From an uncultured Dehalococcoidia bacterium (GTDB lineage: Bacteria > Chloroflexota > Dehalococcoidia > Lucifugimonadales > UBA3495), in the NCBI GenBank assembly GCA_951813535.1, contig OX638345.1, forward strand, positions 1,191,029-1,255,028: a stretch of DNA of 64,000 nt, given 5' to 3'. The notes beneath the pieces are model-generated. The model made no database searches. It had not been told where the DNA came from and was given only the letters and a program-made list of their open reading frames with translations. Position numbers and translations under genes: made by a program. Each line of letters begins with the position of its first letter. Position 1 is the stretch's first letter. This document shows, one piece after another, positions 3,001 to 37,544 of this stretch.

Positions 3001-3483
3001 GGCCGGCCCGGTGAATTTGAGGTCCACGCGGGTGATGATGTAACCGGGCTCGTACGTTGGGGAGGTGAAAAGGATCTCCGCGTCACGGCTCGACAGAGCG
3101 GTACTGCTGCTGTGGGTTGGCTCTCCCAGGTTGCTGAGCAGCACTCGTTCGGCGGCTCCGGTTCTGGCAACGCCGTCCTGGGCGTGTGCGGGCTTTCCGG
3201 CGCTGAGGAGGGTGAGGGCCAGCGCGGCGGCGACCAGCAGCATTGCGATTGCTGGTGCTTTCAGGCCAGAGGCCGGGGATGCCGGTAGGAGTGTGGCGAG
3301 GCGTTTGCTTTCCCTCCCGCACAGCGTTGCCCGTGCCGTTGCGCGTTGGCGTTGGTTGCCTATGGAGTGTGTGCCTGTGAAGGACCGGCGCAGGGCAGAT
3401 TTGTCGCGCGCCAGCCGTACCCCGGACCAGATCGCGTTCGGAAAATATGCCAGTGATTGAGACAAGCTGCGTTTCAGATTCAT
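1..3483 (-). CDS. Large secreted repeat-domain surface protein (C-terminus beyond left edge)
   Basis: The frame is open from an ATG at 3483 to the first base of the window, 1161 codons with no stop in any codon checked, so the C-terminus lies outside. A charged N-terminal extension of about 80 residues leads to a hydrophobic segment and an AHA|Q cleavage site after residue 101, so the protein is probably exported. Then come beta-rich regions. One around residues 550-680 (QCPEPELQGG onward) matches the repeated unit of the divergent neighbour at 4833. Two SwmB-like, Ig-fold repeats lie around residues 680-790 and 790-910 (motifs TLTLTMNE, DAAGN/DRAGN-type turns). A Calx-beta-like region follows near the left edge. 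No catalytic motif is visible. The role is probably adhesion or surface structure, inferred from domain type only. The ribosome site is weak. A 70-bp tandem array lies directly upstream. Confidence 0.82.
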   Translation of the reverse strand, partial: MNLKRSLSQSLAYFPNAIWSGVRLARDKSALRRSFTGTHSIGNQRQRATARATLCGRESKRLATLLPASPASGLKAPAIAMLLVAAALALTLLSAGKPAHAQDGVARTGAAERVLLSNLGEPTHSSSTALSSRDAEILFTSPTYEPGYIITRVDLKFTGPANSAADLPFVALRNHVGTEITLTGSPTNLGNNTYGFTPDSTARIGSAATYFLMIEGGTMSLAQTGSNRVDTGSGHRWTTAFAGYSRSHDSTGVTTALSGGNSYQFSIRGNVIQPTVPYVSNTGQTTVDQQSLQSDDRAQTFNTGSIIAGYPLHSVSVSMRDNTIRQHSGRYLHPLPDLAIHRSSADGPKVTDLPTPPSGWSHDYVLDTPVTLDPSTAYWIVASADPGQWARTNTNEDSGATAGWAIGDKHEFRTDGNTRAFTQSSSTGALKISVNGPPVNSQASGKPVITTPITFRVPAVLSVDFSGITDTSDGTADVARAITNYRWQRFAADGTTLEQDNIGADATYTLTDADAGKTIKVSVSFEDDSGFPEGPFTSDATAAITAIEQCPEPELQGGATLIEGPRRIGIASYQFGSRTYHGYNTFTTEGTLDDDTFSTTETPAGYTIQAIEYESQLGRMWFNLDSTIAAADKQALALHVCGDLYPLNDFRAGTGAGNPYYITSSQDWSAHAERTFYITEDLVVPTVVDATVNGTSVVITFSEKLFASTTHGTGNFTVTKGSSNTRVSVSNSPRPYSSGNELTLTLASAITASDTNILLDFTNPSTSAPRGQQLTDLTGNRAANFTDLPVTNLAADSTAPTLAQSNPAVLAADGKTLTLTMNESMKTSSLPAATAFTIEATPAGGSESTVALDATTPVTVSGSTVMLHLNTPIAHNDTNVKVSYAAPSTGGKLQDRAGNDLASFTDQSVTNNSAIPRISVQALHNDATPVIAPPSFRFTASNAPSADLELNLKLDQATEHFEISAPTIDAQNTTVDAQTLSFVSAINSINTDGTATVTVVGGDDHLPALAPNNSATVAAKLPPTGPSVQVSHQQLTYSSTEGQPLSIGVVFTAGEGVAQPRESFSAALRTDDAGTATVNEDYTPISTNIPVTPADWSATNAGGYTYTSQQDITIIDDGLYEPDAETFVAYLHASQGVSDKLVIPDRNDADGEATISITSLN

Positions 3484-3526
3484 GGTAATACCCACTCGCT
3501 TCCGCGTTATCGAGATTCGGTCCGGT

Positions 3527-3870
3527 ACAAACCCGGCATATGGGCCGTGCACAGGCGGGGGTATGAGTCACATACGAGCCGGGAAATGGATCAGGCGCGA
3601 GGCCGGCATATGGGCCATGCACAGGCGAGGGTATGAGTCACATACGAGCCGGGAGATGGGTCAGGGGCGAGGCCGGCATATGGGCCGTGCACAGGCGGGG
3701 GTATGAGTCACATACGAGCCGGGAGATGGGTCAGGGGCGAGGCCGGCATATGGGCCGTGCACAGGCGGGGGTATGAGTCACATACGAGCCGGCAAACGGG
3801 TCAGACGCGAGGCCGGCTTACGGTCACATACAAACCGACATATGAGTCATGTACGAGCCGGCGCATGGGG
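3527..3870. repeat. 70-bp tandem repeat array in divergent intergenic region
   Basis: Units begin with GTATGAGTCACATACGAGCC at 3561, 3631, 3701 and 3771, a period of exactly 70 bp. The units at 3631 and 3701 are identical, the unit at 3561 differs by a few bases, the one at 3771 is diverged, and partial copies flank the array at about 3530-3560 and 3840-3870. Each unit holds the inverted repeat GTATG-AGTCA-CATAC and a CATATG core. Seventy is not a multiple of three, so it is not a protein repeat. It sits 5' of the gene that starts at 3483. Confidence 0.93.
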
Positions 3871-4832
3871 CTTATCGCCGCATGCCGGGGCCGGTGGCTT
3901 ATCCGCCTGAGTCTGCCGACGAGGGTAGCCGTCGCTCCGCCGCTGCGTAAGGTTCGAAAGTACCAATGCGGCTGGTATTTTTCGACCAATTTTTGTGGAG
4001 CGCATCGCTAACTTGCGCCGGCAATCTGTGGTCTGAAGCCGTCCGGGGATGGGCGCGCGTCGCACGCGGGCGGGGGCAGGATGGCTCCCGTGGAGTTTGT
4101 CGGGCGATGGTCGTGACCATTCGTTCAGCCCGGGTGCGGACTTCCTGCTTGCCCGGCTCCGCGTCGATATTCCCGGACCCGAGCCCGGTTGCGGTGCGCC
4201 AGCGGTAGCCGCCCATGCCAGCCGGGGCCGGAGCCCATGATCCAGGATGCAGCCGGCGGCGGCCCCCTCACCGGGAAGCGCGACAATCTCGCCGCCGGTG
4301 GCGCAAACGCTCACTCCACGAGATTGCCACTTCGCTTCGCTCCTCGCGATGACAGCCTGAGAATCCTGGAGCGCCGTCGCGGCGGCATCCGTTGCGAGCA
4401 GGACATTTCCCAAGGTTTCACCTCCGCCACCGGAACGAAGGTCACGCGCTCCGGCGGGCGCTGCCCAGAGGACGACGCAGGATCGAGTGGACTTGCGCCA
4501 TGGTCCAGGCGACATCGGAGCGCAAAGTACCCGGGCGATTGGACGGAATGCTGACCGCAAACTAACGAAAAAGACCAGGCAAAAGAGGTGTATGCGAACC
4601 TTTTTCGACGGCGAACGGCCAGTTACCGTTAGAAACAGTGCGTGGCTGATAAGCCACCAACGCAGGTTTTCCGCGCTATGCCGCACACGAGGGCGTGTAA
4701 CGGCGAAAAGCGCAATACAAAAGCAGACGCGTCTCGGCCGGTGAGCCGCCAGCGTCGGTACGCGGCGATACGTCGCACACCGGCGCTGCGCAACGGCCAA
4801 AGGCGCAATAAAAGGGAACGGAAGGATACAAA
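3871..4832. other. Intergenic region with no convincing gene
   Basis: This is the remaining 960 bp between the divergent surface-protein genes. The open frames here lack ribosome sites and family resemblance and look like chance frames in GC-rich DNA. The region holds one interspersed-repeat copy (4320-4356) and presumably the promoter of the gene at 4833, but no clear -35/-10 pair stands out. Confidence 0.6.
4320..4356. repeat. Interspersed repeat remnant of the CATTGCGAGGAGCGAAGC type
   Basis: The segment reads GAGATTGCCACTTCGCTTCG followed by CTCCTCGCGATGACAGC. On the reverse strand this matches the widespread bacterial intergenic element with core GTCATCGCGAGGAGCGAAGC and a trailing GGCAATCTC. 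Only one copy is seen in this window. The identification rests on memory of the element, not on a search. Confidence 0.6.
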
Positions 4833-32209: not shown

Positions 32210-33079
32210 TCAACTCACCCTGCTCAGCCCGTCCGGCGCGCCGGATGCGGGCAGGCCTGCCGCGTTCTTCCGGAAGATGATGTCCAGCCCGACCAGCGTC
32301 AGTTCCTGGTTGATGTCGTCGAACACCGGCACGTGGTCCGAGATCACCGTCACCAGCCCGCCCGTGCCGACCACCCTGGCGTCCTCGCCGATCTCCGCCT
32401 TGAACCGCCCGACCATCGCCGTCACCAGCCCGGCGTACCCCAGCACGATCCCCGATTGCAGCGACGTCGTCGTGTTCCGTCCCACCGCCTCCGTTGGCGC
32501 GACCAGTTCCACCCGCCTCAGTTGCGACGTGTTGTAGTACAGCGCGTCCGCCGACAGGTTGATCCCCGGCGCGATCGCTCCGCCCAGGTACTCCCGGTCC
32601 CGGGACACAGCATCGAACACCGTGGCCGTGCCCAGGTCCACCACGATCATCGGGGCGCCGTAGAGTTCCACCGCCGCCACCGCGTCCACGATCCGGTCGG
32701 CCCCCACGTCGCGCGGGTTGTCGTAACGGACCGGCATCCCCAGGTCGATCTGCGACGTCACCTGCAGCGGCGTCACGCCGAAGAACCGGCGGCACAGGTC
32801 CTCGAACATGCCGGTGAGCGGCGGGACCACCGAGCAGATGCATGCCGCCGTAATGTCGGTGGTCGTGATCCCCCGGAACTCCAGCAGGTTCTTCAGCAGG
32901 ATCCCGTATTCGTCCGCGAGACGGCGCGAGTCCGTCGCCACCCGCAGCGTGGTCACCAGCCGGTCCACCGGATTGGCTCCGTTTCCGCTGCCCCCGGCGT
33001 CGCTCCAATCAGTGACGCCCCCATCCCGGAACACCCCAATGGTCACAGCCGTGTTGCCGATGTCGATGGTCAGGAGCAT
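32210..33079 (-). CDS. coaX: Type III pantothenate kinase
   Basis: A protein of 289 residues. ATG 33079 was preferred to an in-frame TTG at 33100 because CoaX proteins begin directly with the first strand, here MLLTIDIGNTAVTIGVF with the phosphate-binding DIGNT. Further motifs are NPRDVGADRIVDAVAAVELY, IVVDLGTATVFDAVS and YLGGAIAPGINLSADAL, all typical of the ASKHA-fold type III enzyme. It phosphorylates pantothenate with ATP, the first step of coenzyme A synthesis. It is the first gene of a coaX-coaBC-SulP operon on the minus strand. Confidence 0.94.
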   Translation of the reverse strand: MLLTIDIGNTAVTIGVFRDGGVTDWSDAGGSGNGANPVDRLVTTLRVATDSRRLADEYGILLKNLLEFRGITTTDITAACICSVVPPLTGMFEDLCRRFFGVTPLQVTSQIDLGMPVRYDNPRDVGADRIVDAVAAVELYGAPMIVVDLGTATVFDAVSRDREYLGGAIAPGINLSADALYYNTSQLRRVELVAPTEAVGRNTTTSLQSGIVLGYAGLVTAMVGRFKAEIGEDARVVGTGGLVTVISDHVPVFDDINQELTLVGLDIIFRKNAAGLPASGAPDGLSRVS

Positions 33080-33322
33080 GGTAATCCAGTTATGTGACAA
33101 GAGTTAATGAGTCGTCACATCGGCGGCATTATAAATGTCAACACCGTTCCCCGCAAACTATTTGCAGTTCGAATGCCTACCCAGGTGTAAATTGTCAGTC
33201 ACAAATTCTCACTATCACCGGAATGTCCCCAGCTATCCGACAATCATCCCGGCACCTCCGCCGCAATTCCCACCGCCTACTGTCGTTCCTGTGCACCGCC
33301 GTCATGCCTGCGCCCCACCGTC

Positions 33323-33342
33323 ATTCCTGCGCAAGCAGGAAT
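33323..33342. repeat. Interspersed inverted repeat (ATTCCTGC-GCAA-GCAGGAAT)
   Basis: Eight-bp arms ATTCCTGC and GCAGGAAT surround GCAA, within CGTCATTCCTGCGCAAGC. This matches the common bacterial intergenic element beginning GTCATTCC and ending GGAATCCAC. Degenerate half-copies (TCGTTCCTGTG, GTCATGCCTGCG) lie just upstream at about 33283-33312. It sits in the 324-bp gap between coaX and the methyltransferase gene, where no other feature is seen. Confidence 0.75.
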
Positions 33343-33403
33343 CCACCTTCGCGGCAAGCCTGCGCTCGCTGTTCACCCGCTGAACGGCGCGAAACCTAGC
33401 CGG

Positions 33404-34795
33404 CTACGCCGCAATGCCCATCTCCCGCAGCCGCGCCACCAGGTACTCCTGCGGCCGGTCGCCCTTGGTCCGGTTGCAGTGCCCGCACAGCAGTTGCAGG
33501 TTGTCGATGTGATCCGTCCCGCCGCCCGACTGCGGGATCACGTGGTCGACCTCCAGGTGCCGGAACTCGAAGGCCGACCGGCACCCGTTGCATCGCCCCT
33601 CCTGCTGCCCGAACAGCACGTGCTTGTTCTGCCGGTACGGCACCGGCGCGTCGATGTCGGTGCGGCGTGGTATGTCCGTGCGCGCCGTCACCAGCCGGTT
33701 GTGGAACAGCTCTCCCATGGTCTGCTGCAGCCGCAGGTTCACCAGCTCGACGGCCTTGGACGATATGTCGATCCCGACCCACCTCCGCCCCAGGTTCTCC
33801 GCCGCCACGCACGCGGTGGCGCACCCGCAGAACGGGTCCAGCACCATGTCGCCCTCGTTGGACGACGCCCGGATGATGCGCTCCAGCAGCGCGAGGGGTT
33901 TCTGCGTCGGATAGCCGATCCTCTCTTTGGATTGCGCTTGCAAGGGGTTGATGTCCGTCCACAGATCTTGCAACGGCACTCCGGGCATTTCGTCGAGGTA
34001 TCGCTTGTATGCGGGCACCGCACCTGGTCTCCGCTGGATGACCCTGCCGGCGTCGACGAGTTCTTGCATCCGTTCCTCGCTATACCGCCAGTAGCGTGTG
34101 ACCCCCATGACTTCATACTGTGGGTTTCCCTTGGAGGCCCCGCCGGGTCCAGTCAAGTTATCCAATCTGTAGCGCCGATTCGTGCCCGGTTCAAAGTATT
34201 TGTAGAACTTCGCTACATATTCGGGGTCGTAGTCCGTATATATCGGGTTCCACGCCCACTCGTCGGACTTGGTATAAAAGTAGACTACGTCGTGAACGCG
34301 ACCGTGTTGCTTGCGACCTTGACGGGTGTCGCTGTGAGCACTGGTGCGCCGCCAGACGATTTCGCTGCGAAAGCAAGTCTGGCCATAGATGCTATCCATC
34401 AGCAGCTTAAGAAAATGGCTGGCGGTCGGATCGCAGTGCAGGTAGATCGATCCGGTGTCCTTGAGAACCCGCCGCATCTCCAGCAAGCGGACGGCCATCA
34501 TGCACAGGTACGACTGCATCCCCTTGCCGTGGGTCAGCCCGGCCGCCTGCAGCACCTGGTACATCGCCGGCTGCTCGTCAGCGATCAGGCCCATCCACGC
34601 CACGTCCAAGTCCGACAGCGTCCACATGTCCTTGAACGCCGCCCCGGCCGCCGCGCTTCCCACCGGCGCCGCGTAGTTCCGGTTCGAGTTGAACGGTGGG
34701 TCCAGGTAGATCAGGTCCACCGACTCCGAGTTCAACCCCCGCAGTATGTCGAGGTTGTCCCCCGTCCAGATCGTTTTGTCAGCAAAGTTGGTCAT
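33404..34795 (-). CDS. Beta-class DNA methyltransferase fused to an HNH nuclease domain
   Basis: A protein of 463 residues from ATG 34795; a 24-residue upstream extension is possible but looks unconserved. The methyltransferase (about 1-380) has motif IV DPPFNS at residue about 32 before motif I DPFCGCATACVAAENLGRRW, the beta-class order used by N6-adenine and N4-cytosine enzymes. The specificity region lies between. The last 70 residues are an HNH module: RCNGCRSAF, HLEVDHVIPQSGGGTDHIDN and LLCGHCNRTKGDR, with two CxxC zinc pairs and the DH catalytic histidine. One polypeptide could thus both modify and cut. No separate restriction gene is adjacent. Upstream on the same strand is the interrupted NYN gene. 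Confidence 0.9.
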   Translation of the reverse strand: MTNFADKTIWTGDNLDILRGLNSESVDLIYLDPPFNSNRNYAAPVGSAAAGAAFKDMWTLSDLDVAWMGLIADEQPAMYQVLQAAGLTHGKGMQSYLCMMAVRLLEMRRVLKDTGSIYLHCDPTASHFLKLLMDSIYGQTCFRSEIVWRRTSAHSDTRQGRKQHGRVHDVVYFYTKSDEWAWNPIYTDYDPEYVAKFYKYFEPGTNRRYRLDNLTGPGGASKGNPQYEVMGVTRYWRYSEERMQELVDAGRVIQRRPGAVPAYKRYLDEMPGVPLQDLWTDINPLQAQSKERIGYPTQKPLALLERIIRASSNEGDMVLDPFCGCATACVAAENLGRRWVGIDISSKAVELVNLRLQQTMGELFHNRLVTARTDIPRRTDIDAPVPYRQNKHVLFGQQEGRCNGCRSAFEFRHLEVDHVIPQSGGGTDHIDNLQLLCGHCNRTKGDRPQEYLVARLREMGIAA

Positions 34796-34812
34796 GGCTG
34801 GCCGTACCGAAT

Positions 34813-35448
34813 TCAATTGAGCCGGAACTGTTCGCGTATGGTTGGAATGGCGATGCTGCCCCAGCATTTGCCGGTTAGCGCACGTGCCTGTGGCGGAAAC
34901 GCGCCATGCACAACTTTGATGCCACGCGTTTGCAGAAACTCTACCACCGGAATGAAATCCCGGTCCGATGACACCAGGACGGCTACGTCGTAGTTCCCTA
35001 CCCAGACAAGGCTAATCATATCGGTAACTATTCTGGTATCGACACCCTTTTCCTCGGTGCCGCGCATATCGCCATGGCAAACGGGACACACTGCAATTTC
35101 GGCCTGACAGGATGGCGAAGGACAGGTTGGCCCAGCTTGCTTGCGCTGGCGCTCTACAATCGTGCCGTAAACGCCGGGGAAGCCGCTGAGCGTGTTCTCA
35201 AACCAGTTTCAGTGATTGGCGCCGGCTTGGGTATCAGGGTCGTAGGAAGTGTACACGTTCATCCCCTGGTATAACGCGGACGCGTTCGGGTCAACCACGC
35301 GCAAAGCCTCATGTGCCAGGGAAACACCCAAAGGTCTCATATCGATCCTGAACCCAGGGTCGGTTCGACGCAGAGAAAGTGCGAAATTCTGGTAGTCGAC
35401 GAACACGCGCACGCGCTGCTCGCTGGTGGAGGCTCTAGCGGTAATCAT
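34813..35448 (-). pseudogene. NYN-domain (PIN-like) nuclease gene with an in-frame TGA
   Basis: From ATG 35448 the frame gives RVRVFVDYQNFALSLRR, the first NYN strand with D18 and N21, then runs to a TGA at 35209-35211 (codon 80). The same frame continues past it: NWFENTLSGFPGVYG, a CPSPSCQ...CPVC zinc-like loop, EEKGVDTRIVTDMI and VSSDRDFIPVVEFLQTRG, ending at 34813. Together they form one NYN/LabA-like protein of 211 codons with all expected acidic residues. So a single nonsense change (for example CGA or TGG to TGA) or a read error breaks it. Other genes here use TGA as stop, so genome-wide recoding is excluded. Such proteins are usually RNases. Confidence 0.75.
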
Positions 35449-35477
35449 CGTCGCTCACTGTCATCGTTAAATGTCTG

Positions 35478-35500
35478 CGGGGGCGCATTGCACGCCCCCG
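35478..35500 (-). terminator. Short GC-rich hairpin upstream of the NYN gene
   Basis: CGGGGGCG (35478-35485) pairs with CGCCCCCG (35493-35500) around CATTGCA. It lies 30 bp upstream of the NYN start and 180 bp after the lipoprotein gene on the same strand. It may end the lipoprotein transcript; there is no clear T-run. Confidence 0.4.
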
Positions 35501-35680
35501 GGGTATTTGTAATCGGGCACCGTACTCCCCTAATGTTGGGCAGTTACCCGATGGGTAATTGTGCTTTTGATGCTAGCAAGCACGCTGGCCTCTGTCAACT
35601 TTGGCATCGGAACGCAACCGTGCGGATTCGGTTAGGGCGCTCGGTCGCGAAGCTATCGATCAGCGTCGGCACGGGACGGC

Positions 35681-36160
35681 CTACTGCTCGGCGCCGGCGA
35701 TCCCCACCTGCACGATTCTGGGCTGGTCGACGCCGGCCACTCCCACGTACTGGAACGCCTTCCCGTCCGCTTCGCGCGGCTGCATGCCCTGGGTCACCAC
35801 CTGCTTGTTGCCCAGCAGAAGGTCGGCGAAGGGCGCGGCCTGGGTGCCCGCGCCCGGGTCCGTGGGGAATGCGAAATCCAGGCCCGGCGCGCTGGTGAAC
35901 TCGATCCGTCCCGTCTCGTCGCTCACCCAGAACTCGGTGATGATGCTGGTGTTGGCGATCTCCGCCAGCGTCGCGTTGATTTCCTCCGGCGGCTTCCCCG
36001 CCTCCAGCGCCGCCGCGATGTAATGGGCAGTCAGTTTGGCCTCGGCGATCAGGTGCGCCGTTTCGTCCACATCGTTGAGCGCGGCCTGGTCACCGGACGC
36101 GCATCCCGCCGCCAGGGCCATTGCCAGCGCCGCCATGGCCAGTGCGTAAAATACTCGCAT
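35681..36160 (-). CDS. Small lipoprotein with a Cache-like sensor domain
   Basis: A protein of 159 residues. The signal MRVFYALAMAALAMALAAGC ends in a lipobox with Cys20, so it is anchored to the outer face of the membrane. The mature part has a helix (AHLIAEAKLTAHYIAAALEA) followed by FWVSDETGRIEFTSAPGLDF and a run of strands to GMQPREADGKAFQYVGV and PRIVQVG. This is the layout of single Cache domains that normally sit on histidine kinases or chemoreceptors. Here there is no transmembrane relay or output domain, so it may be a free ligand-binding lipoprotein. It is divergent from the pentapeptide-TIR gene, about 100 bp away. The assignment is by pattern only. Confidence 0.65.
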   Translation of the reverse strand: MRVFYALAMAALAMALAAGCASGDQAALNDVDETAHLIAEAKLTAHYIAAALEAGKPPEEINATLAEIANTSIITEFWVSDETGRIEFTSAPGLDFAFPTDPGAGTQAAPFADLLLGNKQVVTQGMQPREADGKAFQYVGVAGVDQPRIVQVGIAGAEQ

Positions 36161-36220
36161 TTTCAGGCTTCTCCCTCGACCTTGACACCCCGGTCCGGGG
36201 CCTTATCCGGTGCGATTCTA

Positions 36221-36229
36221 TGCTAAAAT
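36221..36229 (+). promoter_or_regulatory. Possible extended -10 for the pentapeptide-TIR gene
   Basis: TGCTAAAAT is an extended -10 sequence 32 bp upstream of ATG 36261. A TTGACA at 36182 is too far away to be its -35; TTATCC at 36203 is the nearest candidate. Confidence 0.4.
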
Positions 36230-36260
36230 CGCCGCAGAATCCCTTTGGAGACGTGTAAAT

Positions 36261-37544
36261 ATGGCCGACATCGCACTGGTCCAGATCGTCAAGCAGGGGC
36301 GCGACGCCGTCGCCGCCTGGCGCGAAGAGCACTCCAACCAGCCCATGGACCTCAACGCCTGCTACATGAGCCATGCCCGCATCCCCATGGTGAACCTGCG
36401 GGGCGCCGACATGCGGGACGGCGATTTCATGGGCGCGATGGTCCGCCGCGCCGACCTGTCCAACAGTTACCTCAACGACGCGCACTTCTACCGCGCCGAC
36501 CTCCGCGAGGCCAACCTGAGCCGCGCCATCGCCCCCGGGGCCAACCTGCGCGGCGCCGACCTGCGCAACGCCAACCTCACCGGCGCCAACTTCGACCGCG
36601 CCACCCTTTCCGAGGCCAACCTCTCCGGCGCGGATCTCACCAACATCAACCTGGACCGCGCCAACCTGGACCGCGCCAACCTCACCGGCGCCAACCTCAC
36701 CGGCGCCAGCTTCAACGGGACCAACCTGTCTCGCACCAACCTGTCTTCCTGCACCCTCAACGGGGCCGACTTCTACGAAGCCATTCTCAACGACGTAGTC
36801 ACCGGCGAGGCCGATTTCCGCAACTGCATCATCGGCTACACCGTGTTCCAGAACTGCGCCCTCGACGCGGCCGTCGGGCTGGACGAGGTTCGCCACGACG
36901 CCCCCAGCACCATCGGCCTCGATACCCTGCTCCGCTCACGCGGCGCGCTTCCGCAGTCCTTCATCCTGGGTTCCGGGGTGCCGGTCGCGGTGGTCGGTCT
37001 CCAGGACAGCGTAGCCGACGCTCCGGTCACCACCCTCGAAGTCCACATCTCCTGCGCCGAGGCCGACATCCCCTTCGCCCGCCAGCTGGAAGCCAACCTG
37101 CGCGCCCAGGGAGTACGCAGTTGGGTCTTTGCCGAGGGTTTCCGGGGCAACCCCCTGGTCGACCGCCGCGCCACCTCCGGCGAGGAGGAGATCGAGCGGT
37201 GGGTTCGACACTACGACCGCCTGGTCGTGGTGTGCAGCGCGGCGGGTTTCGATAGCGAAACGGTCCGCAACGATATCACCGGCGCCCACGAAGCGCAGCG
37301 GGTCGCAGATAGCTGGACCATGTTCCTGGTCGACGCCGATGGCATCATGGGCGCCGGCCGCCACCGCGCCGCCCGCCTCATGGCCGAGGATTATCGCTTC
37401 TTCGACCTTACCGGCCAGTCCGAAGACTCCGCCGAGTACCAGGCCGTTTTGGAAGACCTGATCAACAACCTCCGCGAGGACCAACCCGTCAGCGCTGCCG
37501 CTCCCCCGCGCCGGGAAGTCGATCCCCGCACTCTCCAGCTCTAA
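36261..37544 (+). CDS. Pentapeptide-repeat protein with C-terminal TIR domain
   Basis: A protein of 427 residues. ATG 36261 has GGAG 10 bp upstream. Residues about 40-200 are A(D/N)LXX pentapeptide repeats (ADLREANLSRA, ANLTGANFDRA and so on) forming a right-handed beta-helix. A linker (TIGLDTLLRSRGALPQSF, 217-234) of a type known from pentapeptide-TIR fusions leads to a TIR domain at about 258-400: LEVHISCAEADIPFARQLEA, GVRSWVF, DRLVVVCSAAGF. In NAD-cleaving TIRs a Glu follows the S..(8-9 residues) motif; here the aligned residue seems to be D338 (SETVRNDI), so activity is open. Bacterial TIR proteins often act in phage defence. It ends at a convergent terminator. Confidence 0.85.
   Translation: MADIALVQIVKQGRDAVAAWREEHSNQPMDLNACYMSHARIPMVNLRGADMRDGDFMGAMVRRADLSNSYLNDAHFYRADLREANLSRAIAPGANLRGADLRNANLTGANFDRATLSEANLSGADLTNINLDRANLDRANLTGANLTGASFNGTNLSRTNLSSCTLNGADFYEAILNDVVTGEADFRNCIIGYTVFQNCALDAAVGLDEVRHDAPSTIGLDTLLRSRGALPQSFILGSGVPVAVVGLQDSVADAPVTTLEVHISCAEADIPFARQLEANLRAQGVRSWVFAEGFRGNPLVDRRATSGEEEIERWVRHYDRLVVVCSAAGFDSETVRNDITGAHEAQRVADSWTMFLVDADGIMGAGRHRAARLMAEDYRFFDLTGQSEDSAEYQAVLEDLINNLREDQPVSAAAPPRREVDPRTLQL

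Follow-up and report, generated by a model that had tools for sequence, protein, structure and literature searches.

The closest described relatives of the gene considered here are the NYN (PF01936)/LabA-like, DUF88-type proteins. One of these, VPA0982 of Vibrio parahaemolyticus (2qip), an LK-nuclease/DUF88 structure, is placed in the PIN/NYN nuclease superfamily in a published account (PMC2848206). The gene resembles proteins of this type in having a Pfam NYN match above the cut-off and the residues D18, N21, D137, D162 and D164, but it differs from them in four conserved cysteines (109-124, zinc-ribbon-like) and in a stop at codon 80; no treatment of such a zinc-ribbon NYN subfamily was recognised in the literature searched by titles and abstract beginnings. 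The stop is a TGA, and the second body of described systems to be compared is the bacterial selenoproteins, whose SECIS element lies immediately downstream of the UGA according to a second account (PMC1794560).

The gene lies on the minus strand at 34813..35448 of the window, the whole 64,000-nucleotide stretch analysed. Its frame opens with an ATG at 35448 and runs through 79 residues (35212..35448), the TGA at 35209-35211 and 131 further residues before it ends in a TGA at 34813 (34813..35208 for the downstream part), the codon-80 TGA being the sole break. The upstream part holds D18 and N21; the downstream part holds a zinc ribbon (C109/C114/C121/C124) together with D137, D162 and D164. An earlier note had placed this TGA within one continuous frame, and both the coordinates and the codon number are right: with the read-through protein as a tblastn query, alignments cross codon 80 in most relatives with the frame unchanged (residues 6-211 align to L010, for example, at 58%), and the agreement of the two sides with a single family in a single frame is far beyond chance. 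Because codon 80 is TGA under translation table 11, the reading frame for the NYN domain is not intact, and the gene is classed as a broken member of its family.

The same note had described a single NYN domain with its acidic residues, and this too is borne out. Pfam NYN matches the read-through protein at E 1.1e-13 (52.4 bits, cut-off 24.2) and the 131-residue downstream part alone at E 1.6e-12; the 79-residue upstream part alone matches no Pfam family, its kinship being clear from the alignment with relatives. In an alignment of 28 rows, the window copy included, D18, N21, C109, C114, C121, C124, D137, D162 and D164 are invariant. All four of D18, D137, D162 and D164, which we take to be the catalytic residues of a PIN-like active site, are present, and the majority of the conserved acidic positions lie after the stop. 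The AlphaFold2 model of the read-through protein, built on the 28-row alignment, is a single fold (mean pLDDT 93.3). Its only PDB fold match at E < 0.001 is 2qip (E 1.7e-7), with which it shares the fold at 18% identity and a TM of 0.52 by query length; a PDB sequence search with the read-through protein matched no chain. The same query gave only weak matches in PADLOC (HEC-09, 34.5 bits; NYN, 28.3 bits), none in NCBIfam, and two families of unknown function in PHROGs. The product is predicted to be an RNA-cutting enzyme. The window's genome (G000) has 11 NYN matches, the window's own included.

Both parts of the gene are conserved, as they would be if it were split, with two polypeptides jointly forming the NYN domain. 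The earliest possible in-frame start past the TGA, at 35091, is about 40 codons on and inside the zinc ribbon: a restart there would not yield an NYN domain, because it falls among the cysteines. The stop itself falls inside a predicted helix (74-85), and in the model a 79-residue product would contain just strands one and two with their surrounding helices. A split gene therefore seems highly improbable.

A scan of genome contigs for relatives found 50 loci across several phyla, to which were added L060 from the same genus, L095 and L096 from the same order, and L105 from a viral contig, making 54 rows. Twelve that were broken, cut-off or oddly ending were dropped (L009, L043, L044, L048, L050, L051 and L053-L058), as was L025, which has the same NYN gene sequence as L060; 41 intact rows remain. 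The orthologue residue at codon 80, which the earlier note had proposed comparing, is H, K or R in 12 rows each, Y in two, L in two and a gap in one. Neither a stop nor a cysteine occurs at this position in any of the 41, nor in the eight of the 12 dropped rows that span the column. The stop is absent from the relatives' column and so, within the set of sequences compared, belongs to the window copy alone. In a tree the window row stands outside every well-supported small group, which points to no particular donor.

Is the UGA decoded? The window's genome looks like that of a selenocysteine user: it has SelA (542 bits), SelB (354.8 bits) and a tRNA-Sec (66.4 bits, anticodon TCA), and its selD (L139, 1105770-1106690) contains one in-frame TGA, at codon 20, presumably close to the N-terminal position that is selenocysteine or cysteine in SelD proteins. 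This single internal stop looks like a selenocysteine codon. The machinery and the selD TGA together made recoding of the NYN TGA worth testing, with selD as the control. The 60 bases from the selD TGA fold at z -2.86, with 5 of 500 shuffles as good, a signal clear at 60 nt only, shorter lengths giving z of only -0.25 to -1.39. No hairpin follows the NYN TGA: over five lengths z is +0.75 to +1.84, against -0.25 to -2.86 for selD, and 495 of 500 shuffles fold as well at 60 bases. A second fold test gave z of +1.37 and +1.40 for 54 and 62 bases, and of -1.12 and -0.63 for two 101-base stretches. Rfam returned nothing relevant, either at the gathering threshold on 33000-37000 or at E up to 10 on 35000-35460. 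The NYN gene is like the selenoprotein gene selD, then, in having an in-frame TGA in a genome with the selenocysteine machinery, but its site has neither cysteine in relatives nor a hairpin downstream. NYN, moreover, is not known to be a redox enzyme. Selenocysteine at codon 80 was ruled out by the absent hairpin and the lack of cysteine in the 41 relatives, and we would give it almost no weight.

Another possibility is that a near-cognate tRNA reads the UGA, so that a little full-length nuclease is made, whether or not this serves regulation. Among bacterial stops UGA is generally regarded as the leakiest, and the part of the gene after it is conserved; leaky readthrough could keep the enzyme at a low and harmless level, the internal UGA being tolerated in a bacterium that decodes UGA elsewhere. 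Against this, none of the relatives that span the column carries a stop in it, most shuffles fold at least as well as the 40-60 bases starting at the TGA, and there is no conserved partner gene. The suggestion in the earlier note that readthrough controls a toxic nuclease finds no support in these results, and readthrough of either kind, including the tolerated low dose, is very unlikely.

How well is the gene kept? At the 49 columns whose conservation across the other rows reaches 95%, the window copy departs six times: at four of the 12 before the stop and two of the 37 after it (Fisher p 0.026, post hoc), 35 of the 37 after the stop being kept. Among the 41 other rows, L096 departs 13 times, L060 six times, L052 four times and the other 38 at most three times each, so that 39 of the 41 intact rows depart at four conserved columns or fewer. 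Six departures make the window copy unusual, yet they make the intact L060, from the same genus, equally so, and are no proof of decay. Only about 3% of single changes in the gene make a stop, and by computation some 96 changes could accumulate before a second stop became 95% likely; the lack of a second stop therefore says little. The well-kept state of the gene after the stop means that any loss is recent, although one gene alone cannot date it.

The same observations bear on a consensus-base or local assembly error, in which the gene would be intact in the organism, or a stop carried by a minority variant would have become the consensus. That there is only one lesion, and that the sequence beyond it is well conserved, agrees just as readily with such an error or with a decoded stop, which counts against inactivation. 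Codons 79-80 also fit the family better in frame +2 than in the called frame, making a small local length error conceivable, but the preference for a different frame is confined to these two codons; a stop arising by substitution and one arising by small length changes may both be compatible with this local fit. Family searches across this genome found no internal stop at its 10 further NYN places or at 8 SelB, 4 SelA and 4 Fdh-alpha places, although this is a small control, and the one stop among the 4 SelD places is the apparent selenocysteine codon. The read error raised in the earlier note is a possible cause on the strength of the single lesion and the frame +2 fit, but it comes second to inactivation, and we consider it unlikely, at something short of one chance in five. 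Two other observations touch on interrupted frames: the coaX matches in two sister genomes, G008 (L121) and G007 (L124), are interrupted by one TAG and one TGA, which may reflect faulty assembly or the ends of the alignments, and when the window was scanned by codon usage for interrupted genes, 14 places were flagged, the NYN gene not among them, a result that was left unused. At least some of these flags are shadow frames in G+C-rich DNA (15291 +, overlapping 15303 -).

Broken copies are not confined to the window. At least seven of the 50 scan loci carry other lesions that contig ends or N runs do not explain: L009, L043, L053, L054, L055, L056 and L057 have frameshifts, stops or lost 5' parts (in L056 the 3' part additionally runs off the contig end). 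None of the seven has the codon-80 stop, and some of their lesions may be assembly errors. Among the sequences compared, the zinc-ribbon NYN subfamily is mobile and often broken.

The NYN gene stands in an insert of about 2.5 kb (33179..35680), bounded by the type III pantothenate kinase gene coaX (32210..33100, minus strand; syntenic in sister genomes) and a gene at 35681. The insert's other gene, an N6/N4 DNA methylase fused to an HNH nuclease (33404..34795, minus strand), is 17 bases beyond the NYN gene end. coaX was found in 11 of the 13 other genomes of the genus; seven of these 11 places were fetched, and in all seven the insert is absent, with neither an NYN nor a methylase-HNH gene present. 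A strong NYN match occurs in one of the 13 other genus genomes and in four of 250 genomes of the order, the window's own included. The G+C content of the NYN gene is 0.566, against 0.636 for the window. Plasmid relatives come from five records, all of 6.3-12.4 kb and including plasmids of Paracoccus and Novacetimonas, and no recurring neighbour stood out as an obvious partner in the three inspected. Clustering of neighbours across the fetched loci likewise gave no conserved partner: once NYN genes and the frames antisense to them are set aside, the largest cluster spans three loci. The gene thus does not fit a toxin-antitoxin pair, there being no conserved small partner gene adjoining it. Among phage records one of 50,697 matches, aligning to half of the query at 37%, and among viral contigs one locus (L105). 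Repeats within 33050-35750 are just short or imperfect, and none was recognised as the ends of an element. On this evidence the NYN gene is accessory, mobile and stand-alone.

Some features of the neighbourhood deserve mention in their own right. The methylase-HNH gene (33404-34795, minus strand) has matches in 13 of the 14 genus genomes at E up to 1e-30, fragments included, with 18 in G012; it seems mobile, because G005 and G010 carry copies of 88-89% identity at other places. In the same-genus relative L025, a piece matching the HNH end of the methylase (3074-3330) comes just before the NYN gene (3523-4146) on the same strand, whereas in the window the methylase-HNH gene comes after it; the adjacency of NYN and HNH in both could be either chance or a real association. 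A gene that joins pentapeptide repeats to a TIR domain (36210-37544, plus strand) adjoins the insert and occurs in all seven of the sister loci examined.

Of the three causes that the earlier note had offered, recent inactivation is the best supported, by the privacy of the stop, the insert, the patchiness and the other broken copies: the gene is probably a recently acquired, dispensable accessory nuclease gene that was recently inactivated by a premature TGA. A stand-alone NYN nuclease gene would have been acquired horizontally, and the TGA at codon 80 would then have inactivated it, recently. Translation would stop after 79 residues, leaving a fragment that lacks the zinc ribbon and the majority of the conserved acidic positions. 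Loss of the accessory gene would be tolerated, because the family is patchy across taxa, occurs on small plasmids and is often broken in relatives at other positions. This account takes the stop to be real in the living population and not read through, as we infer it to be.

The NYN gene is a broken representative of a familiar kind of gene and matters little in itself. Were readthrough true after all, it would amount to dosage control for a mobile nuclease. The genome that carries it looks like that of a selenocysteine user, and its UGA-interrupted genes need testing case by case.
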